A stretch of 64,000 nt of DNA from Tardiphaga sp. vice304 (GTDB taxonomy: Bacteria > Pseudomonadota > Alphaproteobacteria > Rhizobiales > Xanthobacteraceae), in assembly GCF_007018905.1 (NCBI RefSeq), contig NZ_CP041402.1, positions 3,274,001-3,338,000 on the forward strand, read 5' to 3'. The position numbers and the translations under genes were made by a program. A model generated the notes under the pieces. It made no database searches. It saw only the letters and a program-made list of their open reading frames with translations, and was not told the DNA's origin. This document shows, one piece after another, positions 7,192 to 52,997 of this stretch. Position 1 is the first letter of the stretch. Every line of letters begins with the position of its first letter.

Positions 7192-7253
7192 GGAAAGTCA
7201 CTTCGGTTTTGAGATGCCGATGGCTCTGCGGAATCGCTTGCGTGATGGGGGCA

Positions 7254-7577
7254 TCAGGGCCCGAAGGTGCCCAGCCGTCGACCGAGATCCTGCATCACGA
7301 AGGCGTTCATGCGTAGCATCACCATCGTGCCGTTCGGTGACTTGCCATCGATCTCATAGGTTGCCGCATCGACCTGGCGGATGCCGTCAATCTGGCTGAT
7401 CTCCGTGATGGAGGGTGCTTTCGGCGCTGGCGCAGCGGCGTTGACCGGAGCCGGCTTGCGCATCGCGGGCGGGGCGGCACGGACAGCCGGGGCTTGCGAC
7501 GGAGACGGCGCGGCATCCTGCGCCAGGCCGGCGGAGGCCGGAATCAGCAGCGCGGCTGTCAGCAAGATGAGTTTCAA
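7254..7577 (-). CDS. Small exported Ala/Pro-rich protein
   Basis: The 107-residue product has an N-terminal signal peptide (MKLILLTAALLIPASAGLAQ), an Ala/Pro-rich linker of about 35 residues, and a short C-terminal domain (QIDGIRQVDAATYEIDGK...). It starts at a TTG; a GAGGAG ribosome site lies eight bases upstream and no ATG is available before the signal peptide, which supports that start. The family is not recognised. It is on the same strand as the other small exported gene at 6895-7191 and may share its transcript. Confidence 0.55.
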   Translation of the reverse strand: MKLILLTAALLIPASAGLAQDAAPSPSQAPAVRAAPPAMRKPAPVNAAAPAPKAPSITEISQIDGIRQVDAATYEIDGKSPNGTMVMLRMNAFVMQDLGRRLGTFGP

Positions 7578-7662
7578 AGTCGTCTCCTCGGTGGTGGCAA
7601 CGTGCCGGCTGCTTGACGCCGGATTACGGACAATTTGATGGCAGAGTCCGCGTGCAAAGTCG

Positions 7663-7728
7663 TTACCCCATCACCGAAAAACCGCCATCCACCGGAATCG
7701 CCGTGCCGGTGACGAAGTCCGACGCGGC
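7663..7728 (-). pseudogene. Remnant of an SDR gene (last 21 codons)
   Basis: The frame encodes AASDFVTGTAIPVDGGFSVM-G and a TAA. This is identical in protein to the C-terminus of the SDR at 11840-12610. The two DNA stretches differ at four synonymous bases in 65 and in the stop codon. Homology ends abruptly upstream, so only the 3' tip of a related SDR survives on the far side of the autotransporter gene. Confidence 0.75.
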
Positions 7729-7851
7729 TGGGCCAGCAACCACGGGAAACCTTACCGTTTTGGCCGTCACGCGCCATCTCCCCGCGTCCCAAGTCCCAAG
7801 TTCAAGTCTCATTGGGCCAGAGCGCCGATCGAACTGTTTGTAACCGCCGGG

Positions 7852-37155: not shown

Positions 37156-37495
37156 TCTGGTCGAATAGACCAGGATTGTGGCCGATGCTAGAGGCAAATG
37201 ACCGATTTGCGACGGCTATGCGGCCCCGTCCACGCGTTTGACCACGGTGGGAAACCCATTCAGTCATGTAGCTCGGACAACATGGGGCTCGCCCTTGAGG
37301 CGTACCGGGTTGGTCGCGCGATGATCTTGTTGGGAGAGGAATTTTATTCAAACAAACACGCGCATGGCAAAAGCCACTCTTTCCAGCCTGCCTGTGGCAA
37401 CTTCCTCCTTAATTCCGACAAGCGCTGGACCATCCGGGCTACCGCACGTAAATCTCTGCCAATATTGATGAATTCAGACTGTCCGAGGATTTGCC
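37156..37495. other. Intergenic region with a half repeat
   Basis: About 340 bases between hspQ and the first sulfur transporter contain no supported gene. A solitary half of the GTAGCCCGGATG repeat (CATCCGGGCTAC) lies at 37431-37442. Since the sulfur-oxidation island begins just after, this region is a candidate island edge and holds the promoter for the transporter gene. Confidence 0.5.
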
Positions 37496-38542
37496 ATGAT
37501 CGATATTGCGGTTACCGCCGGGTTTGCGATCGGCGTTGCCTTCGGCGTGATCGGCCTGCTGAGCGGCTTCTGTCTCACGAGCAGTCTTCGCGACTGGAGC
37601 GCACATGACGGCCGCCGTATCCGGAGCTATGCGCTCGCTCTGGCGGTGGCGATCGCAGGCACCCAGTTTCTCGCCGCGGCGGACATCGTGGATATCGGAA
37701 AGTCGCTGTATCTGCAGCCGGCATTTTCCGCGCCGCTGATCTTCGCAGGTGGCCTGCTGTTCGGCCTTGGAATGGTACTGGCGAACGGCTGTGCATCGCG
37801 TGCACTGGTGCTGCTGGGCAAGGGCAATCTGCGGTCTCTCGTGGTCCTCGTGATCCTCGGAATTGCCGCCCAGATGACGCTGAAGGGCCTGCTGGCGCCA
37901 TCGCGCCTCGCGATCATTCAATGGACGCAGATTTCCCCGGCGAGTGTGTCGGCGCCGGCGTTGCTCGCGTCGATCGGACTCGGCGACACGGCCGCGCGCA
38001 TCCTTGCGACATTGATCGGCAGCGGCACGCTTTTCGCCTTTGCCTTTTCCGACCGCCAGTTCCGTCGTTCTCCTGCGCAGATCACCGCCGGCCTCGCCGT
38101 CGGATTACTGGTAATAGCGGGATGGTTGGCCACGGGCTGGCTCGGTGCGGACGAATTCAACCCGATCCCGGTGACATCGCTGACGTTCATCGCGCCGGTC
38201 GCCGACACGCTGCAATATGCGATGCTCTCGACCGGTCTCACGCTGAACTTTGGAATAGCCATCGTCGTTGGCGTGCTGACCGGCAGCCTCGCGACGTCGC
38301 TGCTCACGGGACGCTTTCGCGTCGAAGGCTATGCGTCGGCCGATCACATGATGCGTTCGATATCGGGCGCGGCGCTGATGGGGATCGGCGGCGCGATGGC
38401 CTATGGCTGTTCGGTCGGGCAGGGACTGACAGGGCTCTCGACGCTCTCGCTCTCGTCGGTGATCGCCGTCGCCGGCATTCTCACCGGTGCAGCCGTGGGC
38501 CTGCGACGACGTGTGCCGGCGCCGGCTCTGGTGACTCAATAG
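37496..38542 (+). CDS. YeeE/YedE-family sulfur transporter (first of three)
   Basis: YeeE/TsuA-type proteins import thiosulfate, passing it along conserved cysteines. The 348-residue protein is strongly hydrophobic and has all three family cysteine motifs: LLSGFCLTSS (C26), LANGCASRALVLLGKGN (C98) and AYGCSVGQGLTG (C304). It heads a plus-strand group with two exported DsrE-like proteins. It is a paralogue of the proteins at 39602 and 50052 but not a recent copy, as identity outside the motifs is low. Confidence 0.9.
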   Translation: MIDIAVTAGFAIGVAFGVIGLLSGFCLTSSLRDWSAHDGRRIRSYALALAVAIAGTQFLAAADIVDIGKSLYLQPAFSAPLIFAGGLLFGLGMVLANGCASRALVLLGKGNLRSLVVLVILGIAAQMTLKGLLAPSRLAIIQWTQISPASVSAPALLASIGLGDTAARILATLIGSGTLFAFAFSDRQFRRSPAQITAGLAVGLLVIAGWLATGWLGADEFNPIPVTSLTFIAPVADTLQYAMLSTGLTLNFGIAIVVGVLTGSLATSLLTGRFRVEGYASADHMMRSISGAALMGIGGAMAYGCSVGQGLTGLSTLSLSSVIAVAGILTGAAVGLRRRVPAPALVTQ

Positions 38543-38653
38543 CAACAATGCGGCTGCGGAGAGCCTGCGTTGAAGTGTTGGTCGCATCTCGCGGAATGGG
38601 CTAGACCGTCATGGCAGGCTCTGAAGAAGCCGGTCATGGGAGGACGAACCCGG

Positions 38654-39127
38654 ATGCTTTCGCGCTATTTTCTGGCAGGATTACTGGTTGCCGCTGTGGG
38701 AGCCGCCGCGGCGTTTCCTGCGGCCTCGCAGACCAGACCCGCATCCGGGGCATCCTCCGAAGACAAGCCCTTCGCCGAGCATTTCCTGGCGCTGCAGCTC
38801 TCGGACTCCGATGCCAGAAAGGAGCGGCTCGTGCTCAGCGTGGCGAGCAACATCCTGAAATTCTACGGCCCCGACAAGGTGGCCATCGAAGTCGTGACGT
38901 TCGGTCCGGGTATCCACCTGCTCAGAACGGGCAACGAGCACCGTCAGCTCGTGGATAGTCTGGTGAGCCAGGGCGTCCGCTTCTCGGTGTGCGGCAATAC
39001 GCTGGACACGATTGAACGCGACACCGGAAAGCGGCCGGACATCAATCCGTACGCCAAGGAAGTCGAGGCCGGCGTTGCGCAACTGCTGAAACTGACCGAA
39101 AACGGCTACACGCTTGTGCGTCCTTGA
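38654..39127 (+). CDS. Exported DsrE-like protein 1
   Basis: The 157-residue product has a signal peptide (MLSRYFLAGLLVAAVGAAAAFPAASQ) followed by a DsrE/TusD-like domain: LVLSVASNILKFYG, IEVVTFGPGIHLLRTG, and GVRFSVCGNTLDTIERD with a lone conserved Cys113. DsrE-fold proteins carry sulfane sulfur on such a cysteine, usually in the cytoplasm; this one is exported. An ATG six codons upstream (38636) is an alternative. The next gene is a paralogue 12 bases downstream, so they form one unit. Confidence 0.82.
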   Translation: MLSRYFLAGLLVAAVGAAAAFPAASQTRPASGASSEDKPFAEHFLALQLSDSDARKERLVLSVASNILKFYGPDKVAIEVVTFGPGIHLLRTGNEHRQLVDSLVSQGVRFSVCGNTLDTIERDTGKRPDINPYAKEVEAGVAQLLKLTENGYTLVRP

Positions 39128-39139
39128 AGGAGAGATGAG

Positions 39140-39592
39140 ATGAAATTCTTGTGCACTGCAGTCGTCGCCGTGGCGTTGCTGGTCGCGAATGCCGGCCCGG
39201 GTACTGCTGCCGAGCCGAAGCAGCATCGTGTCGCGATCCAGGTCGACCAGAACGATGCCGACGTGATGAATCTTGCGCTGAACAACGCCACCAACATCAT
39301 GGAGCAGTACAAGTCGAAGGGCGAGACGGTAGAAATCGAAATCGTGACCTACGGCCCAGGCCTTCACATGCTGCGCGCCGACACATCGCCGGTGAAAGAT
39401 CGGATCAAGCAGATCGTCGACGCCAGCTTCCCGTCCGGCATCAGGGTCTCGGCCTGCAACAATACCAAGGAGGGCATGGAGAAGCGGGAGGGACGTGCGG
39501 TCAGCCTCATCCCTGAGGCCGAACTGGTGCCGTCCGGCGCGGTGCGGCTGATCGAGCTTCAGGAGAATGGCTGGAGCTATCTCCGGCCTTGA
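39140..39592 (+). CDS. Exported DsrE-like protein 2
   Basis: The 150-residue paralogue of the preceding protein has a signal peptide (MKFLCTAVVAVALLVANAGPGTAA) and the same domain landmarks: NATNIMEQYK, IEIVTYGPGLHMLRAD and IRVSACNNTKEGMEKREG with Cys106, and both proteins end in a Y-x-L/V-R-P. An AAGGAGAGATGAG ribosome site precedes the ATG. The pair could form a hetero-oligomer, as DsrE-fold proteins generally do; that is inference. Confidence 0.85.
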   Translation: MKFLCTAVVAVALLVANAGPGTAAEPKQHRVAIQVDQNDADVMNLALNNATNIMEQYKSKGETVEIEIVTYGPGLHMLRADTSPVKDRIKQIVDASFPSGIRVSACNNTKEGMEKREGRAVSLIPEAELVPSGAVRLIELQENGWSYLRP

Positions 39593-39601
39593 TCGGGTCT
39601 G

Positions 39602-40711
39602 CTATTTCGAGGGGTGGGGTCTTCCCAGCAGACTGGCCCAGCCGCGCGCCAGCAACTCTCTCGGAGCACAGTCAATCAGTGTCGCAATTCCCAGCCGCGC
39701 GCCGATCATCATGCCGCCCACGGCGAACGGCCAGGACAGCGACAGCATCGAGCCGGCGGTGATGCCCTGTCCGATGGTGCAGCCACCGGCCAGGATGCCG
39801 CCAATGCCCATCAGCGCCGCTCCGCCGAGATGACGCCGCATCTCACGGTCGTCGTCGAAGGCTTCCCATTGCAATTCGTCGGCGCGCCACGCCGCGAGGA
39901 AGGCGCCGGCGACCACGCCGAGAACGGAGCCGACGCCAAAATCGGCAAAACCGGCGGTGCTCAGCAGAGCCGAGTAGAAGGCCTTCCCGACGGTGGACAC
40001 GAAGGTCAGGCTTTGCGGACGGATCGGCGCAGCGAATTCGTCTCCGATCCATGACGTCGCCGCCCAGCCCGCTACCGTCAGCATGCCCAGGGCCACGCCG
40101 CCCGACAGCAGGCGCGGCGAATGACGAAGCTTTTTATGGCTGAATGCGAGCAGGCACAGTCCGCCACCGATGAAGGTTGCGATGATCGCGCGGACGTCAA
40201 ATCCCAGCATGCGTGCAGCAAGAGAGGCGAGGTCGGAGCGGATCTCATCCGGCATCGCGACAGCAAGGCTCTCAAGGATGACGATGCGAAAGTTTGCAAA
40301 GACGCCGCGCAACGTCGCATAGGCGGTGGCACCCAGCACGATCAGAACGACGAGGCTGCGCAGGTCGCCGGCCCCCAGCCGCACCAGCGAGCCGAAACCG
40401 CAGGTTCCCACCCAGGCCATGCCGATACCGAACATGACGCTGCCGATGGCGATCGCGAAGATGGGGATAGCCGACGGCGTGTAGCTGGTTTGCATCGGAT
40501 CAAGCAGCCCGCCGATGACGAGCGCCTGCGTTCCGACGATTGCAACGCCGAGGGCAAGTCCGAAGATTCTCAGGCGGCGGCTGTCGCCACCGACCAACGC
40601 GTCCTCGATCGCGCCGAACGAACACAGTCTGGCGTGACGCACGAAAAATCCTGCCGCCGCGCCGATGGCAAAGCCAACCAGCGCGAGCATCCAGCCAGAC
40701 AGGTTCTGCAT
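39602..40711 (-). CDS. soxT: SoxT-like YeeE/YedE sulfur transporter
   Basis: The 369-residue membrane protein has the three cysteine motifs RHARLCSFGAIED, WVGTCGFGSLVRLGAGDLRS and LAGGCTIGQGITAGSML. It is last in the minus-strand order soxS-soxR-soxT, the arrangement known from Pseudaminobacter. The ATG giving MQNLSGWMLALVGF follows CGGGAGTG; a GTG 20 codons upstream is possible. It converges with the DsrE-like pair, ten bases apart. Confidence 0.88.
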   Translation of the reverse strand: MQNLSGWMLALVGFAIGAAAGFFVRHARLCSFGAIEDALVGGDSRRLRIFGLALGVAIVGTQALVIGGLLDPMQTSYTPSAIPIFAIAIGSVMFGIGMAWVGTCGFGSLVRLGAGDLRSLVVLIVLGATAYATLRGVFANFRIVILESLAVAMPDEIRSDLASLAARMLGFDVRAIIATFIGGGLCLLAFSHKKLRHSPRLLSGGVALGMLTVAGWAATSWIGDEFAAPIRPQSLTFVSTVGKAFYSALLSTAGFADFGVGSVLGVVAGAFLAAWRADELQWEAFDDDREMRRHLGGAALMGIGGILAGGCTIGQGITAGSMLSLSWPFAVGGMMIGARLGIATLIDCAPRELLARGWASLLGRPHPSK

Positions 40712-40786: not shown

Positions 40787-41167
40787 CTATTTCTTTTTCG
40801 CTTTCGGCGCAGGCGGCGCGCAGAAGATGTCATAGATCACCGAGATGACGCGCCGGACGTCTTCATTGGCGAGGCTGTAGTAGATCGTCTTGCCGTCGCG
40901 CCTCGTATCGACCATCCCGTCGTAGCGCAGGCGTGCGAGTTGCTGGGAAACGGCGGACTGCCGCATCGACAGGATGTTTTCCAGTTCGGAAACGGATCGT
41001 TCGCGTTCCGCGAGCAGGCACAGCAGCAACAGGCGGTTTTCGTGCGAAACGGCCTTCAGGAAATTGCTCGCCTTGCGCGCCTTGCGCATCAACTGATCGA
41101 GTTCGGGCGAATATTCCGCGCCGTCGCGAAGTTCGTTCTCGAGATCGCTTGAGATGATAGATGTCAT
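40787..41167 (-). CDS. soxR: SoxR/BigR/SqrR-type persulfide-sensing ArsR repressor
   Basis: The 126-residue winged-helix protein has the ArsR DNA-reading helix in RQSAVSQQLARLRYDG and wing RRDGKTIYYSLA. Two cysteines, C50 (LLLLCLL) and C116 (YDIFCAPP), are 66 residues apart, exactly the spacing of the sensor pair in BigR (42/108) and SqrR (41/107), which form a tetrasulfide bridge on exposure to persulfide. It should therefore repress the sox genes until sulfane sulfur appears. Its ATG overlaps the soxS stop by four bases. It is unrelated to the E. coli redox regulator of the same name. Confidence 0.9.
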   Translation of the reverse strand: MTSIISSDLENELRDGAEYSPELDQLMRKARKASNFLKAVSHENRLLLLCLLAERERSVSELENILSMRQSAVSQQLARLRYDGMVDTRRDGKTIYYSLANEDVRRVISVIYDIFCAPPAPKAKKK

Positions 41168-41604
41168 GGCGTTTTCATGCCGTTCGAAGTGTTGGTGGAA
41201 GGCTGGCCCAGCTGCGAGTGCTCGGTCAGGCGCTGCGACTGCAGTCGGGTCACGAATGGGCCGAGCAAACCCCAGAACGCATCGTCGCTGATGAAACCGG
41301 TGATGCGGCCGATTTCGCGACCTTGATCGGCCACCACGAAAGTCGGCGTGTAGCGCACCGCCGATGTCAGCACGGTGCCTGCGTCGGACTGCTTGTCGAT
41401 ATTGATGCGCCGCAACGGAAGCAACCTGGCTTCATCGGTCTTGCCGTAGATCTGGCCGACCTCGCGATCCCAACGTTGGCACCATACGCAGCCGTCGCGC
41501 TCGAACATCAGCAGCTCGGCTGCTTGCGATGCGACCGGCACGAGACACAGAGTGAGCACACAGCACGCGATGAGCCACGATTTCAGGAGCATTTTGCCAA
41601 TCAT
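41164..41604 (-). CDS. soxS: SoxS-like periplasmic thioredoxin
   Basis: The 146-residue protein has an N-terminal signal/anchor (MLLKSWLIACCVLTLCLVPV) and a thioredoxin-like active site C39-VW-C42 in FERDGCVWCQRWDREVGQIY. In Paracoccus, SoxS reactivates SoxYZ by reducing its cysteine adduct. YTPTFVVADQGREIGRITGF is the cis-proline region. The ATG giving MIGKMLLKS is used; MLLKS four codons later is also possible. It is the first gene of the soxSRT unit. Confidence 0.87.
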   Translation of the reverse strand: MIGKMLLKSWLIACCVLTLCLVPVASQAAELLMFERDGCVWCQRWDREVGQIYGKTDEARLLPLRRINIDKQSDAGTVLTSAVRYTPTFVVADQGREIGRITGFISDDAFWGLLGPFVTRLQSQRLTEHSQLGQPSTNTSNGMKTP

Positions 41605-41653
41605 GTGATACACATACACGAATTCGCATGTATCTACCAGAGTTGGTATCGCT
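41605..41653. promoter_or_regulatory. Divergent soxS / soxV control region
   Basis: Only 49 bases separate two divergent starts. An imperfect dyad centred on GAATTC (CATACACGAATTCGCATGTA) occupies the middle and is the best candidate operator for the ArsR-type SoxR encoded by this operon. The published SqrR pattern ATTC-N8-GAAT was not found here, so the assignment is tentative. Confidence 0.4.
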
Positions 41654-42397
41654 GTGATTTCAAATATTTCCTTGGTTGGAGCGTTGGGGGCGGGACTGCT
41701 ATCGTTCCTGTCCCCGTGCATCCTGCCGTTGGTGCCGCCCTATCTTTGCTTTCTGGCCGGCATCAGCCTCGACGATCTGACCAAAGCAGAGCAGCGTCAG
41801 GGCAGGGGCCCGAACTGGCATGTGGTGGCGATGTCCGTCGCTTTTGTGCTCGGCTTTGCGACCGTGTTCGTGGCGCTGGGCGCGTCGGCCTCGCTGATCG
41901 GCAAGGCCGTCACGGCGCATTTCGATACCCTTGGAATGATTGCCGGCGCTGTGATCCTGGTCCTTGGCCTGCATTTTCTCGGCGTATTCAGGATTGGCCT
42001 GCTGTTTCGTGAAGCTCGTTTTCAAGCGGTACGAAAGCCAGCCGGCTTTCTCGGTGCCTACCTCGTGGGGCTGGCATTTGCCTTCGGCTGGACGCCCTGC
42101 GTCGGGCCGGTGCTGGCCGCGATCCTGATGGTCGCCGGCGTCGAGGGATCGGCCGGGCGGGGCGCCTTGTTGCTTGGCGTATATGCGTTCGGGATTGGCA
42201 TTCCTTTCCTGCTGGCTGCCCTGTTTGCGGACCGCTTCGTCCGGCTGCTGGCGCGGCTGCGCCATCACATGAACCTTGTCGAGAAGATGATCGGCTCCGC
42301 ACTTGTGCTGACCGGAATTCTGTTTTTGACTGGGACGATGCCGCTCATAGCTGGCTGGCTGTTGCAGGCGTTTCCCGCTTTCTCGTCGATTGGCTGA
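41654..42397 (+). CDS. soxV: SoxV-like CcdA thiol-disulfide transporter
   Basis: SoxV passes electrons from cytoplasmic thioredoxin to periplasmic SoxW/SoxS. The 247-residue protein has the CcdA-family hydrophobic helices and the redox pair in FLSPCILPLVPPY (C22) and GWTPCVGPVLAAIL (C149). Length is right for CcdA proteins. Translation starts at GTG. SoxW follows 25 bases downstream, matching the known soxVW order. Confidence 0.92.
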   Translation: MISNISLVGALGAGLLSFLSPCILPLVPPYLCFLAGISLDDLTKAEQRQGRGPNWHVVAMSVAFVLGFATVFVALGASASLIGKAVTAHFDTLGMIAGAVILVLGLHFLGVFRIGLLFREARFQAVRKPAGFLGAYLVGLAFAFGWTPCVGPVLAAILMVAGVEGSAGRGALLLGVYAFGIGIPFLLAALFADRFVRLLARLRHHMNLVEKMIGSALVLTGILFLTGTMPLIAGWLLQAFPAFSSIG

Positions 42398-42422
42398 ACG
42401 GATGAACAGGGAGAAGACGCCG

Positions 42423-43010
42423 ATGCTGAATCCCGCCTACCTGCTGACACGAAGGAACGTCGTTGCCGGTCTCGGCCTTTGTACGATGGGCTTCGCTCCG
42501 ACGCCGGTGAAAGCCGCCGCAAAGCTCGGCGACGACGGCCTGTACCAGATGGACTGGTACCTAGAGAGTTTTCTCGACCTCTCCAAGGACCTCGCCGGCG
42601 CCACATCGAAGGGCAAGCGCCTCGCGATCATGTGGGGCCTCAAGGGGTGCCCGGCGTGCAAGCGGATGCATGAAGTCCATCTGATGGATCCGAAAATCGA
42701 GAGCTATGTCCGCGACAATTTCGAGGTGCTGCACCTCAATCACATCGGATCACGGGCGGTGACCGATTTCGACGGACGCAAGCTGACCGAGAAGGCGCTT
42801 GGCGAGGCCTATGGTATTCGCTTTACCCCGACGATCCAGTTTTTGCCGAACAAGATCGACGGCCTCACCGGCAAGAGCGGGCAGGCGCGCGAGGTTGCCC
42901 GGATGCCCGGACTGCTCGAGCCTTCGGAGTTTCTCGCCATGTTCCGCTACGTGCGCGAGAAGGGCTACGAGGCGTTGTCGTTTCCTGACTGGCTGCGCAA
43001 GCAGGCCTGA
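42423..43010 (+). CDS. soxW: SoxW-like periplasmic thioredoxin
   Basis: The 195-residue protein has a Tat-like N-terminus (LTRRNVVAGLGLCTMGF) and the active site C76-PA-C79 in GLKGCPACKRMHEVHL, with GIRFTPTIQFLPN as the cis-proline loop. It should receive electrons from SoxV and keep Sox proteins reduced. The ATG giving MLNPAYLLTRR follows GGGAGAAG; an ATG seven codons upstream is also open. Confidence 0.88.
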   Translation: MLNPAYLLTRRNVVAGLGLCTMGFAPTPVKAAAKLGDDGLYQMDWYLESFLDLSKDLAGATSKGKRLAIMWGLKGCPACKRMHEVHLMDPKIESYVRDNFEVLHLNHIGSRAVTDFDGRKLTEKALGEAYGIRFTPTIQFLPNKIDGLTGKSGQAREVARMPGLLEPSEFLAMFRYVREKGYEALSFPDWLRKQA

Positions 43011-43043: not shown

Positions 43044-43544
43044 TCAGAAATCGAGTTTGTCCTTGATTGCGTCGATGCCGGCTTTGGCGCAGGCTTCATC
43101 GGCTTCGCCGCCGGGGGCGCCGGAGACGCCGATGGCGCCGATCAGCGAGCCGCCGGCCTCGACGACCATGCCGCCGCCAATGACGACGGCGCCGGGCAGG
43201 TTGCGGATGCCGGCCTGCGGCATGCCGGGCTGGCTGATCGCCTGCAGGTCCCCGGTGCCAGTCCGGAACGAAGCGGCCGTCCAGGCCTTGCCAGTCGCCG
43301 TGGCGGGAGTATGGGCGCCGGCGAAGCGGTCACGCAGCATGACCTGCGTCACGCCGAAGCGATCGACCACGGCCACCGCGACTTGATAACCGCGCTTGCG
43401 GCACTCGCCGAGTGCAGCCCGGGCGGAGTCGAGGGCGAGTTCCGGGCTCAGTACCTTGTAGGTGACGAGTGCGTCCTGCGCCTGGGCGGATACCGCCGTC
43501 AGTGCAAGCAGTGCCGCCGCCGTCAACAAGCTTCGAATGGTCAT
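43044..43544 (-). CDS. GlcG/HbpS-family exported protein
   Basis: The 166-residue product has a signal peptide (MTIRSLLTAAALLALTAVSAQAQ) and the GlcG/HbpS domain: LALDSARAALGECRKRGY, VAVVDRFGVTQVMLRD, KAWTAASFRTGT and the glycine-rich GSLIGAIGVSGAPGGEADEACA. HbpS binds haem in Streptomyces; the role of most members is unknown. It lies downstream of soxXA on the same strand, 48 bases after soxX, so it may be co-expressed with them, possibly in haem or redox handling. Confidence 0.85.
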   Translation of the reverse strand: MTIRSLLTAAALLALTAVSAQAQDALVTYKVLSPELALDSARAALGECRKRGYQVAVAVVDRFGVTQVMLRDRFAGAHTPATATGKAWTAASFRTGTGDLQAISQPGMPQAGIRNLPGAVVIGGGMVVEAGGSLIGAIGVSGAPGGEADEACAKAGIDAIKDKLDF

Positions 43545-43592
43545 GCTCAATCCTTTTCTTTGACCGGCATCCGCGTTTGAGGCGTGAGGCGG

Positions 43593-44231
43593 CTACTTGT
43601 TGACCGGTGACGCCGGGTCGAACAGGAATGCAACGAGATCCTTGATCTGCTTTTCGGTGAGGAATTTGTTGGCACCAAAACGCGGCATGTTCGAACAGGC
43701 CAGCACGGCCTGAGAATTGTAGATCTTCGTATAGGCCTGCTTGATCTCGTCGGCACCAAATTTGCGGTCCTTGCCATAGGAGGTGAGGCTCGGTCCGAGC
43801 GTACCGTAGCTGACTTCGGTGCGCTCCATCTGGTGGCAGGCGTAGCAATTGCCGCCGTTGACGGTCTTGTCGTCGTCGGAAAACTGCCCGCCGCGCCCGT
43901 TGTTGGCGATTTTCGCGCCTTCCTTCCAGTCGCCAAGGAAATTGCCATCTGCCGGCAGCACGACCCGGGTCAGTTCGCGCGCGACGATCTTGTCGGCTTC
44001 GGCCGACGGCACATCGTTGCGGTACTGATTGCAGGTCGTCAGCGTTTCATCGGGTTCGATACGTGCCTGCCATTCGGGCTGCGCCTTTCCGAAGGTCGAC
44101 TTGAGGTAGGCGTCAACAACAGCAGGGGCGACGGTGACCGCCTTCGGCTGAGTGTTCTGCGCGAATGCCGTGGGCGAAAGCATCGTGACGCCGGCGGTGA
44201 TCACAAGCGCAATCTGCAAAGTCGTTTTCAT
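43593..44231 (-). CDS. soxX: Sulfur oxidation cytochrome c SoxX
   Basis: SoxX pairs with SoxA to attach thiosulfate to the SoxY cysteine. The 212-residue protein has a signal peptide ending in AFAQ and one c-type haem site, C129-YA-C132-H133 (GGNCYACHQME). A Met in CSNMPRFG is the likely distal ligand. The start is the ATG 11 bases after the soxA stop, so the two form one operon transcribed away from soxY. Confidence 0.95.
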   Translation of the reverse strand: MKTTLQIALVITAGVTMLSPTAFAQNTQPKAVTVAPAVVDAYLKSTFGKAQPEWQARIEPDETLTTCNQYRNDVPSAEADKIVARELTRVVLPADGNFLGDWKEGAKIANNGRGGQFSDDDKTVNGGNCYACHQMERTEVSYGTLGPSLTSYGKDRKFGADEIKQAYTKIYNSQAVLACSNMPRFGANKFLTEKQIKDLVAFLFDPASPVNK

Positions 44232-44242
44232 CGGAGGCTCCC

Positions 44243-45073
44243 TCAGCGCTTGATCGACGGGACGGTGATGTTGCCGCCGGCTGCCTGCTGGTTCAGGAAC
44301 ACGGTGAGCGCGGTGATGCTGTCGGAGGCGTATTCGGGGACCGGCCAGCGCTGCTGTCGGTAGCAGTCCCACAGCCGGTGCTGCATGGTCCGCAGCGCGC
44401 CCTGCGAGACGCGGTATGTCGGCCATGAGCCCATGGTGTCCTGCGCCTCCTTGCCGGGCTTCGAGAAGTTCGGCAGGCCTTGCAGCCGGATCCGCTTTCC
44501 TTCGTCCGCATGGCACGTGGCACAGGCGAAATCCATCACCCCGCCGCGCCGGTAGAACAACTCCTCACCGACGGCAGCCATTTCCTTTTCCTTGGGATGG
44601 CTCAATTGCACGTCGATTTTCATGTCGCTGGACTTGTTGGCGATATAGGCGACCAGATCCTCCATGTCGGAGGCGCGGCCGGGCCCGGAAAACCGCCGGG
44701 TCACGACGTCCTTGGTATCGAGACCCTCGACGTTCTGCATGCACCACAGCAGCCGCTGCTCGAGGTCCATCACCTTGTCGGCGTCCTTGAAATAGCGCGG
44801 AAGCTTCGCATAGGCGCCTTCCAGCTTGCCGGCACCAAGCCCGAGATCGCATTGCTCGAGCGATGCGTTCTTGCTGCCTCGCTTCTCGCTCCACAAAATC
44901 TCGCCGCGATCGACCGCGAGAAAACCGGGATTGGACATTGGATCCGAGATCATCGCGCGATAGCGCTCGATTTCCTTCTCACTGGCATCCTGCGCGGATT
45001 GTGCTGATGCGCCCAATGATATTGTGCAAAGCACCATGGCGAAAAGCGCAGAACCGATTGCGGCTCGTACCAT
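44243..45073 (-). CDS. soxA: Sulfur oxidation cytochrome c SoxA
   Basis: SoxA is the catalytic subunit of the SoxXA thiosulfate-conjugating complex. The 276-residue protein has a signal peptide and one haem site C184-AT-C187-H188 in the C-terminal domain. C237 in [12 protein letters not shown] is the axial ligand known to carry a persulfide. The N-terminal domain keeps C75 and C111 but no CxxCH, so this is the monohaem type with a disulfide in place of the first haem. The ATG giving MVRAAIGS follows a strong GGGAGGTAGAGGA site. Confidence 0.95.
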
Positions 45074-45253
45074 TCCTCTACCTCCCAATTGCATGACCGT
45101 CTTGTGCGGTCCTCGCTCCGAATTTTTTCGGAGATCTTTACATTCAAGAAAAACAATATAATGATGTTTGCAGATCTTGATAGATCAAATCTGGAATCGT
45201 CAAGCGATTCCGTTGTCAGGGATACCCCAAGATATCCTGCTGGAGGATGCCAT
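45074..45253. promoter_or_regulatory. Divergent soxA / soxY control region with inverted repeats
   Basis: The 180-base gap between divergent soxXA and soxYZBCD must hold both promoters. A perfect inverted repeat GGAATCG-TCAAG-CGATTCC lies at 45193-45211, 43 bases before the soxY ATG, and a smaller TTGAT-AG-ATCAA pair lies 20 bases further upstream. The region is AT-rich compared with its surroundings. Both are candidate SoxR operators by position only. Confidence 0.5.
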
Positions 45254-45718
45254 ATGGTTTGGACGTCGGTTGAAACGACCCGTCGTGAGACGCTTGCTTT
45301 CGCTTCGATTCTAGGGCTCGCAGCGCTACTTGCTCCAAGAATGACCTTTGCCGACGAGCAGGCGGTCGCCGCTGAAATCAAGAAGCTTTACGGCGACAAG
45401 AAATTCGACAGCGGCAAGATCAAGCTCGACGTACCCGAGATTGCGGAAAACGGGCTCGTCGTTCCCGTCAACGTGGATGTCGAGAGCCCGATGACGGAGG
45501 CGGACTACGTCAAGGCCGTGCATGTCTTCGCGGATGGAAACCCGCTGCCAGGTATCGTGAGTTACAAGTTCACGCCCGCCTGCGGCAAGGCTTCCGCCTC
45601 GACGCGGATGCGGCTGGCGCAGACCCAGAACATCATTTGCATCGCGGAAATGTCGAACGGAAACCTGCATATGGCCAAGGCCAATGTGAAGGTGACGATC
45701 GGCGGCTGCGGCGGCTGA
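45254..45718 (+). CDS. soxY: Thiosulfate carrier protein SoxY
   Basis: SoxY carries the sulfur substrate on a swinging C-terminal arm. The 154-residue protein ends in the diagnostic GGCGG with the carrier Cys152. Its Tat signal (TTRRETLAFASILGLAALL) fits export as a folded SoxYZ complex. The ATG follows GGAGG and is preferred to upstream in-frame starts. soxZ follows 46 bases later. Confidence 0.95.
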   Translation: MVWTSVETTRRETLAFASILGLAALLAPRMTFADEQAVAAEIKKLYGDKKFDSGKIKLDVPEIAENGLVVPVNVDVESPMTEADYVKAVHVFADGNPLPGIVSYKFTPACGKASASTRMRLAQTQNIICIAEMSNGNLHMAKANVKVTIGGCGG

Positions 45719-45764
45719 TCAATTCGTCCACGAAGCTGTGTAGAATTAAGAACGAGGAATCCCG

Positions 45765-46097
45765 ATGGCTACGCAACCGACACCACGCGTTCGCGTTCCT
45801 GCCCAGGCCAAGCCAGGCGAACTGTTCGAGATCAAGACGCTGATCTCGCACGAGATGGAATCAGGGCAGCGCAAGGACGCCGCCGGCAAGATCGTGCCGC
45901 GCAAGATCATCAACAAGTTCATTGCCGAGTTCAACGGCAAGACGGTGTTCGAGGCCGAATGGAATCCGGCGATCTCCGCCAATCCCTATCAGTCATTTTT
46001 TTACAAGGCCGCTGAAAGCGGTGAATTCACCTTCACGTGGAAGGACGACGACGGCTCGAACTACGTTTCCAAGAGCAAATTGACCGTCGCGGCGTGA
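45765..46097 (+). CDS. soxZ: Thiosulfate carrier subunit SoxZ
   Basis: SoxZ is the partner of SoxY and has no signal of its own, being co-exported with it. The 110-residue protein shows the family's RVRVPAQAKPGELFEIKTLISHEMESGQR read in two blocks, IVPRKIINKF, WNPAISANPY and a C-terminal FTWKDDDGS stretch. Length is standard. It lies between soxY and soxB in the usual order. Confidence 0.95.
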   Translation: MATQPTPRVRVPAQAKPGELFEIKTLISHEMESGQRKDAAGKIVPRKIINKFIAEFNGKTVFEAEWNPAISANPYQSFFYKAAESGEFTFTWKDDDGSNYVSKSKLTVAA

Positions 46098-46187: not shown

Positions 46188-47885
46188 ATGATATCGAGGC
46201 GGGAATTCCTGCAGGCGACTGCGGCTGCGTCGGCTTTGCTGGCCGGCAGCGGTCTTGGCGGTCTGGGACGGGTCGCTGCTCAGCAGCGCCTGTCGCAAGC
46301 CGACATCACCCGCTTCGAGCCGCTCGGGACGGTCACGATCCTGCACGTGACAGATATCCACGCCCAGCTGATGCCGCTGCATTTCCGCGAGCCGTCGGTC
46401 AATCTCGGCGTCGGTGAAGCCAAGGGTTTGCCGCCGCACCTGACGGATTCTGAATTCCGCAGCTACTTCAAGATTGCCACCGGCTCTGCCGACGCTTTTG
46501 CGCTGACCGCGGACGACTTCACCGCGATGGCCCGCAACTACGGCAAGATGGGCGGCATGGACCGCATCGCGACGCTGGTTGGCGCGGTGCGTGCGGAACG
46601 CGGTGCCGACAAGGTGCTACTGCTCGACGGCGGCGACACCTGGCAGGGCAGCTGGACGTCCTTGAAGACCAAGGGCCAGGACATGGTCGACGTCATGTCG
46701 GCGCTGAAGGTCGATGCCATGGTCGGGCATTGGGAATTCACCTATGGCGCCGAGCGCGTCAAACAGATCGCGGACTCCGCCTCCTTCGCCTTCCTCGCCC
46801 AGAACGTCCGCGACAACGAATGGCAGGAGCCGGTGTTCGAGGCGCGCAAGATGTTCGAGCGCGGCGGCGCGAAGATCGCGGTGATCGGGCAGGCGCTGCC
46901 GCGCACTGCGGTGGCCAATCCGCGCTGGATGTTTCCGAAGTGGGAATTCGGCATTCGCGAGGAAGACATGCAGAAGCAGGTCGATGAGGCGCGCGCCGAA
47001 GGCGCTTCGATCGTGGTGCTGCTGTCGCATAATGGCTTCGACGTCGATCGCAAGCTGGCGGGGCGGGTCAAAGGCCTCGACGTGATCCTGACCGCCCACA
47101 CCCATGACGCGATGCCTGGACTCGTCCGCGTCGGCAACACGGTGCTGGTGGCGTCGGGCTCGCACGGCAAGTTCGTCTCGCGGCTCGATATCGCGGTAAA
47201 GGACAACAAGGTGGCCGACATCCGCTTCAAGCTGATGCCGGTGTTCGCCGACGCCATCAAACCCGATCCGGCGATGGCGAAATTGGTCGAGCAGGTGCGG
47301 GCGCCCTATGCCAAGGATCTGGCGCGGGTGATCGGCAAGACCGACTCGCTATTGTATCGCCGTGGCAATTTCAACGGCACTTTCGACGACCTGATCTGCA
47401 ACGCGATGTTGGCCGAACGCGACACCGAGATCGCGCTGTCGCCGGGCTTCCGCTGGGGCGGCACGCTGCTGCCCGAGGACAATATTACCTGGGAAAATAT
47501 CACCAACGCCACGGCGATCACCTATCCGAACTGCTACCGCAACCAGATGACCGGAGCGCAGCTCAAGGAAGTGCTGGAAGACATCGCCGACAACATCTTC
47601 CATCCCGACCCTTACTTCCAGGGTGGCGGCGACATGGTGCGGACCGGCGGCATGGGCTACGCGATCGATGTCGGCAAGCCGATGGGCTCGCGCATCAGCA
47701 GTCTCACGCACCTCAAATCCGGCCAGCCGATCGAGGCATCGAAGACGTACACCGTTTCCGGCTGGGCCAGCATCAACGAGAACACGCAGGGCCCGCCGAT
47801 CTGGGACGTCGTGGCGGCCCATGTCGGGCGCGTCGGCAGCGTAAAAATCGATGCGAACACCGCCGTGAAGGTCACGGGAGCCTGA
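46188..47885 (+). CDS. soxB: Thiosulfohydrolase SoxB
   Basis: SoxB releases sulfate from the SoxY-bound sulfur chain using two manganese ions. The 565-residue protein starts with a Tat signal (ISRREFLQATAAASALLAG). The metallophosphatase ligands are visible: HVTDIHAQL, LLDGGDTWQGS, VGHWEFTYG, LLSHNGFDVD and TAHTHDAMPG, followed by the 5'-nucleotidase-like C-terminal domain. Length is normal for SoxB. Confidence 0.96.
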   Translation: MISRREFLQATAAASALLAGSGLGGLGRVAAQQRLSQADITRFEPLGTVTILHVTDIHAQLMPLHFREPSVNLGVGEAKGLPPHLTDSEFRSYFKIATGSADAFALTADDFTAMARNYGKMGGMDRIATLVGAVRAERGADKVLLLDGGDTWQGSWTSLKTKGQDMVDVMSALKVDAMVGHWEFTYGAERVKQIADSASFAFLAQNVRDNEWQEPVFEARKMFERGGAKIAVIGQALPRTAVANPRWMFPKWEFGIREEDMQKQVDEARAEGASIVVLLSHNGFDVDRKLAGRVKGLDVILTAHTHDAMPGLVRVGNTVLVASGSHGKFVSRLDIAVKDNKVADIRFKLMPVFADAIKPDPAMAKLVEQVRAPYAKDLARVIGKTDSLLYRRGNFNGTFDDLICNAMLAERDTEIALSPGFRWGGTLLPEDNITWENITNATAITYPNCYRNQMTGAQLKEVLEDIADNIFHPDPYFQGGGDMVRTGGMGYAIDVGKPMGSRISSLTHLKSGQPIEASKTYTVSGWASINENTQGPPIWDVVAAHVGRVGSVKIDANTAVKVTGA

Positions 47886-47960: not shown

Positions 47961-49235
47961 ATGAGTGACAAGCCAATTGCCGAGGTTTTAAATCGCCGCC
48001 GCTTTCTCGGCGCGGCGGGACTTGCCGGCGCCGGCGCGATGCTGCCGCAGCTGGCGAAAGCCGAAGCGCCGAAGCCGGATCCGTTGATCACCGAAGTACA
48101 GGACTGGAGCCGCTATCTCGGCGAAGGCGTCGACAAGCGACCGTATGGCATGCCGTCGAAATACGAAAAGCATATCGTCCGCCGCGACGTCTCCTGGCTG
48201 ACGGCGTCGCCGGAATCTTCGGTGAACTTCACGCCGCTGCACGAAATCGACGGCATCATCACGCCGTCGGGCCTGTGTTTCGAGCGGCACCATGGCGGGG
48301 TCGCCGAGATCAATCCGGCCGACCACCGGCTGATGATCAACGGCCTGGTCGACAAGCCGCTGGTGTTTACCATGGACGACATCAAGCGGATGCCGCGGGT
48401 GAACAAGGTGTACTTCCTGGAATGCGCGGCGAATTCCGGCATGGAATGGCGCGGTGCCCAGCTCAACGGCTGCCAGTTCACCCACGGTATGATCCACAAC
48501 GTGATGTACACCGGCGTGCCGCTCAAGGTGTTGCTCAACGAGGCCGGACTGAAGCCGAACGTGAAGTGGCTGATGCTGGAAGGCGCCGATGCCGCCGGCA
48601 TGAACCGCTCGCTGCCGATCGAGAAGGCGCTGGACGACGTGCTGATCGCGTTTGCGATGAACGGCGAGGCGCTGCGGCCGGAGAACGGCTATCCGCTGCG
48701 CGCGGTGATCCCGGGCTGGCAGGGCAATCTCTGGGTGAAGTGGCTGCGCCGGATCGAGGCCGGCGACCAGCCGTGGCAGACCCGCGAGGAAACCTCCAAA
48801 TACACCGACCTGATGGCCGACGGCCGCTCGCGCAAATACACCTTTGTGATGGACGCCAAGTCGGTGGTGACCAATCCGTCGCCGCAGGCACCGCTGAAAT
48901 TCAAGGGCCGCAACGTGCTGACCGGTATCGCCTGGTCGGGGCGCGGTACGGTCAAGCGCGTCGACGTCTCGCTGGACGGCGGCCGCAACTGGCAAACGGC
49001 GCGGCTCGACGGTCCGGTTCTGGATAAGTCGATCGTGCGGTTCTACGTCGATTTCGACTGGAACGGACAGGAGCTCATGATTCAGTCCCGCGCCATCGAT
49101 GAGACCGGCTACGTGCAACCCTCGAAGGACGAGTTGCGCAAGGTGCGCGGCGTCAACTCGATCTATCACAACAATGGTATCCAGACCTGGCTGGTGCGGC
49201 CCGACGGGGAGACTGAAAATGTCGAGATCGGTTAG
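47961..49235 (+). CDS. soxC: Sulfane dehydrogenase molybdenum subunit SoxC
   Basis: SoxC with SoxD oxidises the sulfane sulfur on SoxY, allowing full conversion of thiosulfate to sulfate without sulfur globules. The 424-residue protein has a Tat signal (LNRRRFLGAAGLAGAGAML), the sulfite-oxidase-type molybdopterin fold with Cys155 in FLECAANSG as the Mo ligand, and a C-terminal dimerisation domain. Its last 17 bases overlap soxD. Confidence 0.95.
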   Translation: MSDKPIAEVLNRRRFLGAAGLAGAGAMLPQLAKAEAPKPDPLITEVQDWSRYLGEGVDKRPYGMPSKYEKHIVRRDVSWLTASPESSVNFTPLHEIDGIITPSGLCFERHHGGVAEINPADHRLMINGLVDKPLVFTMDDIKRMPRVNKVYFLECAANSGMEWRGAQLNGCQFTHGMIHNVMYTGVPLKVLLNEAGLKPNVKWLMLEGADAAGMNRSLPIEKALDDVLIAFAMNGEALRPENGYPLRAVIPGWQGNLWVKWLRRIEAGDQPWQTREETSKYTDLMADGRSRKYTFVMDAKSVVTNPSPQAPLKFKGRNVLTGIAWSGRGTVKRVDVSLDGGRNWQTARLDGPVLDKSIVRFYVDFDWNGQELMIQSRAIDETGYVQPSKDELRKVRGVNSIYHNNGIQTWLVRPDGETENVEIG

Positions 49236-49938
49236 TCTCCTTCTCGCCGGCGTCCTTACGGTCTCGGGAGTCGCTCTCGTGCATGCACCGGCTGGGGCGC
49301 AGCAGACGGCGGCGAAAGCCTCGACGCAGAAGGCCGCGGTCACCTTGCCTGCCAAGCTCGGGCTTGGCCGGCCTGCATTGCCTGAGGAAGTCCGCGCCTG
49401 GGACGACGACGTCCGGCCGGATGGCGTCGGCCTGCCGAAGGGCAGGGGCACCGCCAAGCAGGGCGACGAGATCTTTCAGGAGAAATGCGCGTCGTGCCAC
49501 GGCGAGTTCGGCCAGGGCGTCGGGCGCTGGCCGGTGCTGTCCGGCGGCCTCGGCACGCTGACCGCCGATCGCCCCGACAAGACCGTCGGCTCGTTCTGGC
49601 CGGACGCCACCACCGCCTTCGACTATATCCAGCGCGCGATGCCACTCGGCAATGCGCGTTCGCTCGCCAGCGACGAGGTCTATGCGCTGGTCGCCTACAT
49701 CCTCAGCATGAGCGACGTCATCAAGGATGAGAACTATGAGTTGAACGAAAGCAATCTGGCCAAGGTCAAAATGCCCAATGCCGGCGGCTTCTTCGTGGAC
49801 GATCGCGACGTCAGCGAGAAGCACTTCTGGCAGCGCGATCCCTGCATGAAGAATTGCCGGCCGCCGCCGAAGGTGATCGGGCGCGCGATGTCGGTCGACG
49901 TCACGCCGGACTCCAAGGCCGGGCCGAAGGTGGATTGA
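49219..49938 (+). CDS. soxD: Sulfane dehydrogenase cytochrome subunit SoxD (short, monohaem)
   Basis: SoxD takes electrons from SoxC. This 239-residue form has a signal peptide (VSLLLAGVLTVSGVALVHAPAGA) and a single haem site C90-AS-C93-H94 with Met ligands plausible in AMPLGNARS. Paracoccus SoxD is longer and dihaem; here the C-terminal haem domain is absent, and the late pair CMKNC lacks the histidine. The ATG overlaps the soxC end, which supports translational coupling. Confidence 0.93.
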   Translation: MSRSVSLLLAGVLTVSGVALVHAPAGAQQTAAKASTQKAAVTLPAKLGLGRPALPEEVRAWDDDVRPDGVGLPKGRGTAKQGDEIFQEKCASCHGEFGQGVGRWPVLSGGLGTLTADRPDKTVGSFWPDATTAFDYIQRAMPLGNARSLASDEVYALVAYILSMSDVIKDENYELNESNLAKVKMPNAGGFFVDDRDVSEKHFWQRDPCMKNCRPPPKVIGRAMSVDVTPDSKAGPKVD

Positions 49939-50051
49939 TCGCGAACGGCGCGGACCGGGATCCGCGTCGTGTGAGGTAGCAAGTCACGGAATGCCGTTAT
50001 GAGTTGAACGGGTTGCTTCAGATCAATGCCGGACCGGTGATTGGGCGCACA

Positions 50052-51194
50052 ATGTCACATCATGCTGCGGCGAGCTTACAGATCGGTGTTGCGCGGCCTA
50101 CAGGTGCGCCAGTGATTATCGAATCGCTCATCGAACGTTTCGGCGACACGGCCGCGCTCACGACCGGTGGATTGCTGGTCGGATTTGCATTCGGTGCTTG
50201 CGCGCAACGCAGCAAGTTCTGCCTCCGCGCGGCGGTCATCGAGTTTTCGCAAGGCCAGTTCGGTCCCAAGCTGGCGATCTGGCTTCTGACGTTTTCGGCC
50301 GCGCTTGCCGCCACCCAGGCGGCGATCGCCATCGGCGCGCTCGACGTCAGCGAGGCGCGGCAACTCGCCGCGCGCGGCTCGCTGTCCGGCAGTATCATCG
50401 GCGGCATGATGTTCGGTGCCGGCATGATCATGGCGCGGGGCTGCGCCAGTCGTCTGCTCGTTCTGTCGGCGACCGGCAATCTTCGGGCGCTGGTGACCGG
50501 CCTGATCCTCACCATCGTGGCGCAGGCCTCGTTGCGCGGCGTGCTGTCGCCGGCCCGGGAGAGCCTGTCGGAACTCTGGACCGTGCAGGGTGGCCCGTCG
50601 CGCAACCTGCTCTCGGTGCTCAATGCGGACGCTGTGCTCGGTGCGGTATTGGGATTGGCCGGACTTGCCTTTGCATGCTGGCTGGCGCGCCGCGCCCGGG
50701 TTGGTGCCGTCACCGCGCTGAGCGCGATCGGCGTCGGCCTTGCGGTGTTCGCGGGCTGGCTGATCACCTACACGCTGTCGCAGCATTCCTTCAGCCCGAT
50801 CACCATCAAGAGCGTCAGCTTCACCGGCCCGTCGGCCGATACGCTGATGGGGTTGATCAATTCGCCCTCGGTGCCGCTCGGCTTCGACATCGGGCTAGTG
50901 CCCGGCGTATTCGCCGGTGCGCTGATCGCCTCGCTGCTCGCCCGCGACTGGCAGCTGCAGGGATTTCATGACGGACCGAGCATGCGGCGTTATGCTGCTG
51001 GCGCTTTCCTGATGGGATTTGGTGGCATGCTGGCCGGCGGCTGCGCGGTCGGTGCCGGCGTCACAGGCGGTGCGATCTTCGCTGTCACCGCCTGGCTTGC
51101 GCTGGCGGCGATGTGGCTGGGCGCGCTGGTCACGCATGTTATAATGGACAAGGATGTGGCGGGCGAGATCGCGCCTGCGCTGACGTTAAAATAG
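50052..51194 (+). CDS. YeeE/YedE-family sulfur transporter (third of three)
   Basis: The 380-residue membrane protein keeps the three cysteine motifs QRSKFCLRAAVIEF, MARGCASRLLVLSATGN and LAGGCAVGAGVTGG. It lies between soxD and the SoxF genes on the same strand, so it probably belongs to the sulfide branch or imports sulfur released in the periplasm. An ATG (MSHHAAASLQ) is used; a GTG 20 codons later, closer to the first helix, is also possible. Confidence 0.87.
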   Translation: MSHHAAASLQIGVARPTGAPVIIESLIERFGDTAALTTGGLLVGFAFGACAQRSKFCLRAAVIEFSQGQFGPKLAIWLLTFSAALAATQAAIAIGALDVSEARQLAARGSLSGSIIGGMMFGAGMIMARGCASRLLVLSATGNLRALVTGLILTIVAQASLRGVLSPARESLSELWTVQGGPSRNLLSVLNADAVLGAVLGLAGLAFACWLARRARVGAVTALSAIGVGLAVFAGWLITYTLSQHSFSPITIKSVSFTGPSADTLMGLINSPSVPLGFDIGLVPGVFAGALIASLLARDWQLQGFHDGPSMRRYAAGAFLMGFGGMLAGGCAVGAGVTGGAIFAVTAWLALAAMWLGALVTHVIMDKDVAGEIAPALTLK

Positions 51195-51301: not shown

Positions 51302-51637
51302 ATGACGGGCGGCCGCGAGCTGTCACCGGTCGCACTGGGTGCCGCGATCATGCTGTGCGGAGTTGCGCCGTTGTGCGCCGGTGACCGGGAGCTTGGCGAA
51401 TATCTGTCGAGCGAGTGCGTCACCTGTCACCAGATCAGCGGCCGCTACGACGGCATTCCGCCGATTGTCGGCTGGCCCGAGACTGATTTCGTGCAGGCGC
51501 TCGGTGAATATCGCGACAAGTCGCGCGAGAACGCGGTGATGCGCTCGATCGCCGTGAAGTTTACCGACGAGGAGATCGCCGCGCTTGCCAGCTACTTCGG
51601 CAGCATCGGACCGCACGCCGAAAAAAGCCAGAGATGA
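51302..51637 (+). CDS. Monohaem c-type cytochrome, partner of SoxF/FccB
   Basis: The 111-residue protein has a signal peptide (LGAAIMLCGVAPLCAG) and a class I haem site CVTCH in LSSECVTCHQISGRYDG, with a Met ligand likely in NAVMRSIAVKF. It directly precedes the first flavoprotein gene, the position and size expected of the cytochrome subunit of flavocytochrome c sulfide dehydrogenase (FccA). Paracoccus SoxE, by contrast, is dihaem. Confidence 0.85.
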   Translation: MTGGRELSPVALGAAIMLCGVAPLCAGDRELGEYLSSECVTCHQISGRYDGIPPIVGWPETDFVQALGEYRDKSRENAVMRSIAVKFTDEEIAALASYFGSIGPHAEKSQR

Positions 51638-51681
51638 AAGCAACGCCGCGCCATGCGGCACATTCACAGAAGGGGAGCACC

Positions 51682-52944: not shown

Positions 52945-52997
52945 TCCCAAGCGTCCGCGATGTCGCGCGTCGCGGGCGCCGTCCATGGAGAGTTGAC

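Follow-up and report, generated by a model that had tools for sequence, protein, structure and literature searches.

Exported DsrE-fold proteins associated with the Sox system and with one clade of YeeE transporters in Tardiphaga sp. vice304

Described YeeE and DsrE systems and the Tardiphaga locus

In Hyphomicrobium denitrificans, sulfane sulfur is reported to reach the cytoplasm "by unknown means", and for its three-cysteine YeeE-type transporters SoxT1A and SoxT1B, one of which is encoded in a soxS-R-T arrangement, a periplasmic protein, either a DsbA-like thioredoxin or SoxS, has been proposed to present the sulfur to the transporter (PMC11582611). According to the same source, SoxT proteins of complete Sox systems are read as signal transducers, for which mass import is not needed. 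For the hand-over of sulfur from the Sox periplasm to a YeeE transporter, exported proteins of the DsrE family that track both Sox and one YeeE clade are a concrete and testable candidate. We describe two such proteins, encoded at positions 37496-40711 of a 64,000-nucleotide stretch of the Tardiphaga sp. vice304 genome (contig NZ_CP041402.1, positions 3,274,001 to 3,338,000; hereafter the window). Here, the genes yeeE-a (37496..38542), dsrE1 (38654..39127), and dsrE2 (39140..39592) lie on the + strand and are followed by a convergent yeeE gene, soxT1, on the - strand (39602..40711). As in Hyphomicrobium, the transporters have three cysteines and one of them stands in a soxS-R-T arrangement. 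However, it is an exported DsrE that adjoins the transporter in Tardiphaga, and SoxCD is present. The original prediction for this DNA had given the coordinates of the genes, a cysteine in each DsrE protein (C113 and C106), signal-peptide-like N-termini for both, and three cysteines for each flanking transporter, and all of these were confirmed.

The gap between yeeE-a and dsrE1 is 111 bases and that between dsrE1 and dsrE2 12 bases, and the ATG of dsrE1 is preceded by GGAGGA. In a terminator scan, no terminator-like site was found in the yeeE-a/dsrE1 interval, and the two sites at the end of dsrE2 were not above the number in shuffled sequences (2 vs mean 1.8). YeeE-a is a YeeE/YedE-type transporter (PF04143, 206.9 bits; aligned to 6LEO) with cysteines C26, C99, and C305, and it scored below the TsuA equivalog cut-offs (87.8 vs 400 bits for NF052577 and 70.4 vs 645 bits for NF041049). 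The soxT1 gene (PF04143, 181.5 bits) has an open frame that extends to 40771, with an ATG at 40711, and was named for its gene order, since it lies on the - strand after soxR and a soxS-like gene, as is characteristic of SoxT1. Both flanking transporters had been put forward as partners of the DsrE proteins. For YeeE-a, such a partnership is supported by gene order and co-occurrence; the convergent transporter belongs to the soxT-R-S unit, relatives of which are taken to be signal transducers where the Sox system is complete (PMC11582611).

DsrE1 (157 amino acids) has a single cysteine, C113 (SVCGNTL), and DsrE2 (150 amino acids) the mature cysteine C106 (SACNNTK). With one cysteine per mature protein, neither can contain a CxxC motif. 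DsrE2 passed the Pfam PF02635 cut-off (23.7 vs 22.7 bits). DsrE1 fell below it, with no match in one scan and 16.7 bits in another, and was assigned to the DsrE family via its homology to DsrE2 (35% over 133 columns) and its fold. The AlphaFold2 models of both proteins (mean pLDDT of 84.2 for DsrE1 and 85.8 for DsrE2) have the DsrE fold, and in Foldseek the best structural match for both was MTH1491 (1l1s; E 3.9e-10 for the DsrE2 model), with chain A of DsrEFH (2hy5_A; E 3.0e-4 for the same model) also matching. The conserved cysteine aligned with a cysteine of MTH1491 in a profile of 28 relatives and was kept in 88 of the 89 DsrE relatives from the fetched loci, the sole exception having a gap there. 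MTH1491 (1L1S) and ST0148 (2PD2) are the closest proteins by sequence and fold, but these archaeal chains, of 113 and 108 residues, begin at the DsrE domain and leave no room for a signal peptide.

To judge export, we used a heuristic of our own that requires a charged residue, a hydrophobic stretch, and a small-x-small site. Signal-peptide-like N-termini were found in 103 of 105 DsrE homologues, as compared with 4 of 42 SoxR proteins and 10 of 273 internal SoxB/SoxC stretches that served as controls. By eye, a twin-arginine-like signal can be recognised in one of the two homologues missed, and the RRx[FL]-like motif occurs in 32 of the 105. The predicted export of DsrE1 and DsrE2 is thus well supported, which points to DsrE-fold carriers outside the cytoplasm as well.

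In cable bacteria and sulfur disproportionators, the YTD cluster (DsrEFH type II) also combines adjacent YeeE and DsrE-fold genes in what is read as a transmembrane sulfur relay, but its DsrE is placed in the cytoplasm, belongs to a DsrEFH-like complex, and occurs with TusA (PMC13293266, PMC13047784). In contrast, the Tardiphaga DsrE proteins carry a predicted signal peptide, no DsrF or DsrH was seen, and no tusA lies in the cluster beside yeeE and dsrE; the only TusA match of the genome is at 2067941, more than 1 Mb from the window. The locus likewise departs from the cytoplasmic DsrEFH sulfurtransferase, a heterohexamer of three co-encoded subunits, in that both proteins are signal-peptide-like by our heuristic and only two DsrE genes are present, of which relatives keep one. 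DsrE-family genes in or beside sox clusters, as seen here, have been reported for Sulfurovum indicum, where the sox-adjacent dsrE, soxW, and soxH1 were up 2.17-3.83-fold on thiosulfate and DsrE was called a periplasmic thioredoxin (PMC10045233), and for two Sulfitobacter sox clusters with a DsrE-family orf2 of unknown function (PMC11034169). The extracts of these two reports that concern dsrE propose neither a link to a YeeE clade nor a carrier role, and among the open-access titles and abstracts searched none presented an exported DsrE as the partner of YeeE or of a YeeE clade.

Association of DsrE1 and DsrE2 with the YeeE-a clade

The distribution of the proteins was assessed in 119 genomes of the family, with DsrE called at E 1e-10 and the positions of DsrE, SoxB, and YeeE copied by hand from the match lists. 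Among the YeeE matches listed, an exported DsrE was located within 1 kb of a YeeE in 15 of the 119 genomes, our own included, so the neighbourhood on which the original prediction depended does recur elsewhere. In 14 of them, again including our own, the genes are arranged as in the window, with yeeE-a first, then dsrE1 and/or dsrE2, and then a convergent soxT-R-S unit (context I); one of these loci, in G248, is near a contig end, and that genome has no SoxB match. In the fifteenth genome, G236, the YeeE adjoining DsrE comes from another clade. Both DsrE genes are present in 6 of the 14 context I genomes, DsrE1 only in two (L049 and L050), and DsrE2 only in six (L051-L055 and L059). Either protein alone therefore seems sufficient; an obligate DsrE1-DsrE2 heterodimer is unlikely, and the two are not an obligate pair. 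In the DsrE tree, DsrE1 and DsrE2 form separate clades, each of which spans context I and the soxB-linked context II described below, and the duplication is thus probably older than the split between the contexts. A 272-amino acid metagenome protein (P0043) has DsrE1 and DsrE2 joined in one chain, through either a real fusion or a sequencing error.

In a tree of 113 YeeE proteins, from which four loci fetched as YeeE loci (L127, L128, L141, and L145) were left out as they gave no phmmer match, 26 YeeE-a-like proteins formed one clade with a support of 0.85. The members scored above 400 bits against the yeeE-a of the window, the next best proteins reached 325 bits, and the three cysteines were intact in 26 of 26. 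In the tree, this clade sits closer to the SoxT1 group than it does to YeeE-c, a third transporter of the same sox cluster. The genome sets for the co-occurrence analysis were entered by hand and drawn up after inspection of the data, one genome (G250) was assigned to the DsrE2 clade from its genus and score, and kinship was handled at the genus level only. Among the 119 genomes, 24 had both DsrE1/2 and YeeE-a, five DsrE1/2 only, two YeeE-a only, and 88 neither (p 4e-18), and the corresponding numbers within the SoxB genomes were 23, 2, 2, and 44. When SoxB was required and the 15 genomes with the YeeE-a/SoxT1 arrangement were removed, the numbers were 10, 2, 1, and 44 (p 1.6e-8), and when counted by genus, 10, 2, 1, and 34 (p 1.3e-7; entered by hand). 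The genome survey that had been suggested for DsrE and YeeE thus revealed that DsrE1/2 goes with a single YeeE clade, also in genomes in which the genes are not neighbours. In a sample of 249 genomes of the order, the eight genomes with a YeeE-a that was 62-100% identical were the same eight that had a DsrE match at E <=1.7e-52; six of them belong to one genus.

Five YeeE proteins make up the sister branch of YeeE-a. In four of their five loci (L119, L124, L125, and L126, not L120), yeeE is accompanied by soxY or soxYZ and SoxF-like genes, and the same holds for a 43.5% identical YeeE on a Paracoccus alcaliphilus plasmid. These soxY or soxYZ neighbours of the sister clade make a periplasmic sulfur carrier a recurrent neighbour of this transporter group, and the exported DsrE may fill the place of the carrier beside YeeE-a. 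A conserved sulfur-related neighbour was also sought for the stand-alone yeeE-a genes, among whose neighbours only an alcohol-dehydrogenase-like gene was identified. Taken from sequence comparison, the conserved gene order and the clade-specific co-occurrence support a partnership between DsrE and YeeE-a.

We tentatively favour a reading, only a little short of probable in our estimation, in which DsrE1 and DsrE2 are exported single-cysteine carriers of sulfane sulfur that belong to the periplasmic Sox system and hand sulfur to the neighbouring YeeE-a. The genes, their export-type N-termini, the predicted fold, the conserved cysteines, the Sox link, and the co-occurrence with YeeE-a are the observations from which it starts. 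By analogy with the DsrE family and with published work on YeeE/SoxT, sulfane sulfur would be loaded as a persulfide onto C113 or C106, with the SoxY persulfide or polysulfide formed in the periplasm as the most likely source, passed on to YeeE-a, and relayed via C26, C99, and C305 into the cytoplasm. Given the presence of SoxCD, sulfur imported in this way would probably not feed bulk oxidation but be used for sensing (by SoxR), for assimilation, or for recycling, and a small flux is also likelier because the SoxT proteins of complete Sox systems have been published as signal transducers (PMC11582611). A more specific version, which is possible but on balance doubtful, is that exported DsrE is the dedicated periplasmic sulfur-binding partner of this one YeeE clade and replaces SoxYZ there. 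DsrE would then be the counterpart of a substrate-binding protein, with the sulfur delivered as a covalent persulfide and not as a bound solute.

Sox context and alternative readings

The presence of exported DsrE follows that of SoxB. Among 190 genomes of the class, exported-type DsrE (called at E 1e-6) was found in 15, and SoxB was present in 12 of these 15 as compared with 20 of all 190, an overlap compared by hand. In the family sample, DsrE was found in 43 of the 119 genomes and SoxB in 38 of the 43 (Fisher p 7e-7). DsrE also co-occurred with YeeE above 150 bits (p 8e-4, among the matches listed), but this association was gone within the SoxB genomes (35/3 vs 30/3, among the YeeE matches listed). 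The YeeE list reaches down to 153.6 bits and covers 77 genomes, vs 81 genomes with any match at E 1e-20 among the matches listed, and the weaker YeeE matches left out of it include some of full length (e.g., in G199, G209, and G281). A general DsrE-YeeE association was hence dropped once SoxB was accounted for, and was replaced by the clade-specific one. In a sample of 349 genomes of the phylum, DsrE was matched at E 1e-10 in 30, of which 10 belong to other classes. It is well supported that exported DsrE is an accessory of the Sox cluster and that its primary association is with Sox, not with YeeE in general. Of the sulfur capture and import module envisaged in the original prediction, the link to the YeeE-a clade and the gene order therefore speak in favour, YeeE in general gives way to Sox as the primary partner, and the delivery of sulfur is a step that we infer.

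This Sox link is the basis of the strongest alternative, in which DsrE1 and DsrE2 act wholly within the periplasmic Sox cycle and never meet YeeE, for example by mobilising polysulfide or S0 onto SoxYZ or by clearing stalled SoxY adducts, and share YeeE-a only through the Sox type of the lineage. Besides the lack of a general association with YeeE among SoxB genomes, it draws on context II, in which dsrE1 and/or dsrE2 lie within 1 kb of soxB and none of the listed YeeE matches lies within 1 kb (12 of the 119 genomes). This context includes a second sox cluster of our own genome that the original prediction did not cover, soxCDXYZAB-dsrE1-dsrE2-hbpS (9352-16955 of L031, which is genome 2000001-2020000), where dsrE1 directly follows soxB with an overlap of 4 bp, as also seen at dsrE2/hbpS. 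DsrE-family genes are linked to sox on plasmids as well: two follow soxB in Methylosinus trichosporium OB3b, only the first of which matched DsrE1/2, and Sulfurovum mangrovi has two at a distance of about 5-7 kb downstream of soxYZA. In the stretches fetched for the plasmid-borne DsrE relatives of Azospirillum brasilense, Acidithiobacillus caldus, and Rhizobium tumorigenes, no nearby sox genes were found.

The separation from YeeE in context II weighs against a relay through YeeE-a, and several further observations do so too. YeeE was within 1 kb of DsrE in only two of the 15 DsrE genomes of the class (own included; compared by hand), and in the family 26 strong DsrE hits, in 22 genomes, are close to neither SoxB nor YeeE among the matches listed; one strong hit in G232 is 2 kb from soxB. 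Of the 29 genomes with DsrE1/2, five lacked YeeE-a, and of the 26 with YeeE-a, two lacked DsrE1/2. One of these two, G205 (L057), keeps both transporters with no DsrE between them; the one DsrE-like gene of its sox cluster is distant, comes from another family, and lies farther along (L057 18651-19169). In the order, a weaker DsrE (best E 1.6e-43) was present in 23 more genomes that have no such YeeE-a, and G337 and G459 had a 54-55% identical YeeE and no DsrE match at E 1e-25. Finally, because the genome sets were chosen post hoc and relatedness was controlled coarsely, the p-values given above are a guide only. On the other hand, a role confined to the Sox cycle predicts neither that DsrE1/2 should track one YeeE clade of several, even with the genes far apart, nor that 14 genomes of the family should have kept the order yeeE-a-dsrE, and we regard it as a serious but rather unlikely explanation.

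A hand-over to SoxT1 (39602-40711) instead of YeeE-a, with the exported DsrE proteins presenting sulfane sulfur as the periplasmic arm of SoxR signalling, would fit the convergent position of dsrE2 and soxT1 and the description of SoxT1B of Hyphomicrobium as a signal-transducing transporter, which the same source assumes for complete Sox systems (PMC11582611). However, the family has soxT-R-S clusters without DsrE1/2 (e.g., L098, L102, and L114; genomes G197, G262, and G278) and SoxS has already been proposed as the presenter (PMC11582611), which makes this target improbable. Still less probable is that the DsrE fold has another function in the periplasm, for example in thiol redox control or in the binding of a small ligand: a sox-linked periplasmic DsrE has been called a thioredoxin (PMC10045233) and the titles of the closest structures, MTH1491 and ST0148, describe them as hypothetical or of unknown function, but the single cysteine per mature protein, without CxxC, and the repeated sox context speak against it.

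Further DsrE-like and associated genes were noted in these loci. The HbpS-like gene comes next in 6 of the 12 context II loci; of the 11 context I loci long enough to cover its position, 10 have it, L053 being the exception. Beside our own second sox cluster there is a further exported DsrE-like gene (L031 7234-7884), and upstream of the cluster lie genes for a half-length YeeE and metallo-beta-lactamases. A different DsrE-like family with twin-arginine-like signals, of which the L101 copy (7182-7739) matches PF02635, also belongs to sox clusters, where its place is between soxX and soxW in L098, L101, L108, L118, L121, and L122, between a SoxE-like and a SoxF-like gene in L049 and L057, and downstream of soxD in L104. 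In G051 and G232 (L047 9860-10300 and L085 15158-15772), a distant exported DsrE (PF02635) adjoins a YeeE of the YeeE-c clade in the sox cluster. The DsrE2 relative of Rhizobium tumorigenes (L231 6359-8036) is flanked by a DoxX-family gene and a TlpA-type thioredoxin.

Remaining genes of the sox cluster

The yeeE-a/dsrE block stands at one end of the sox (thiosulfate-oxidation) cluster, which is complete (soxT-R-S, V, W, X, A, Y, Z, B, C, D). Past soxT1, the first genes are soxR for an ArsR-type repressor (40787..41167, - strand; PF01022), for which the nearest NCBIfam equivalog was BigR at 100 bits, below the cut-off of 155, and a soxS-like thioredoxin gene (41164..41721, - strand), named from its position and a weak thioredoxin match (26.2 bits, cut-off 27), the real start of which is probably downstream of the start of the open reading frame. 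They are followed on the + strand by soxV with a CcdA/DsbD transmembrane domain (41654..42397; PF02683, 70.2 bits) and the thioredoxin-like soxW (42390..43010; PF13098, 59.3 bits). The exported HbpS-like gene (43044-43550; PF03928) comes next. The c-type cytochrome genes soxX and soxA (43593..45094) are on the - strand (TIGR04485, 95.3 bits, cut-off 61; TIGR04484, 253.6 bits, cut-off 110). Next on the + strand are soxY and soxZ for the periplasmic sulfur carrier (45089..46097; TIGR04488, 149.1 bits, cut-off 125; TIGR04490, 107.1 bits, cut-off 76), soxB for the thiosulfohydrolase (46188..47885; TIGR04486, 851.5 bits, cut-off 550), and soxC with a soxD-like cytochrome gene (47961..49938; TIGR04555, 633.2 bits, cut-off 420; PF00034 for the cytochrome, which had no NCBIfam match). 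As SoxC scored 633 bits against an equivalog cut-off of 420, the periplasmic Sox pathway looks complete. The third YeeE-type transporter gene, yeeE-c (50004..51194, + strand; PF04143, 169.2 bits), lies outside 37496-40711 and was absent from the original prediction; in the YeeE tree it belongs to a clade distinct from those of YeeE-a and SoxT1.

An operator common to the regions before yeeE-a, soxV, and soxY was considered and rejected, as the top result of a scan for short gapped inverted repeats was 3, not clearly above the 0-2 of shuffled sequences. The block AACTTCCTCCTTAATT at 37399-37414 ends 81 bases before yeeE-a. Its 16-base form had no second match in the window at up to 3 mismatches, and a 14-base form had one more, at 46139 with 2 mismatches. 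In this 14-base form, with at most 2 mismatches, the block is found at the same place in 6 of the 14 other yeeE-a/soxT1 loci. Beyond yeeE-c, two tandem flavocytochrome-c/SoxF-like flavoproteins are encoded at 51634-54269, preceded by a small open reading frame resembling a c-type cytochrome.

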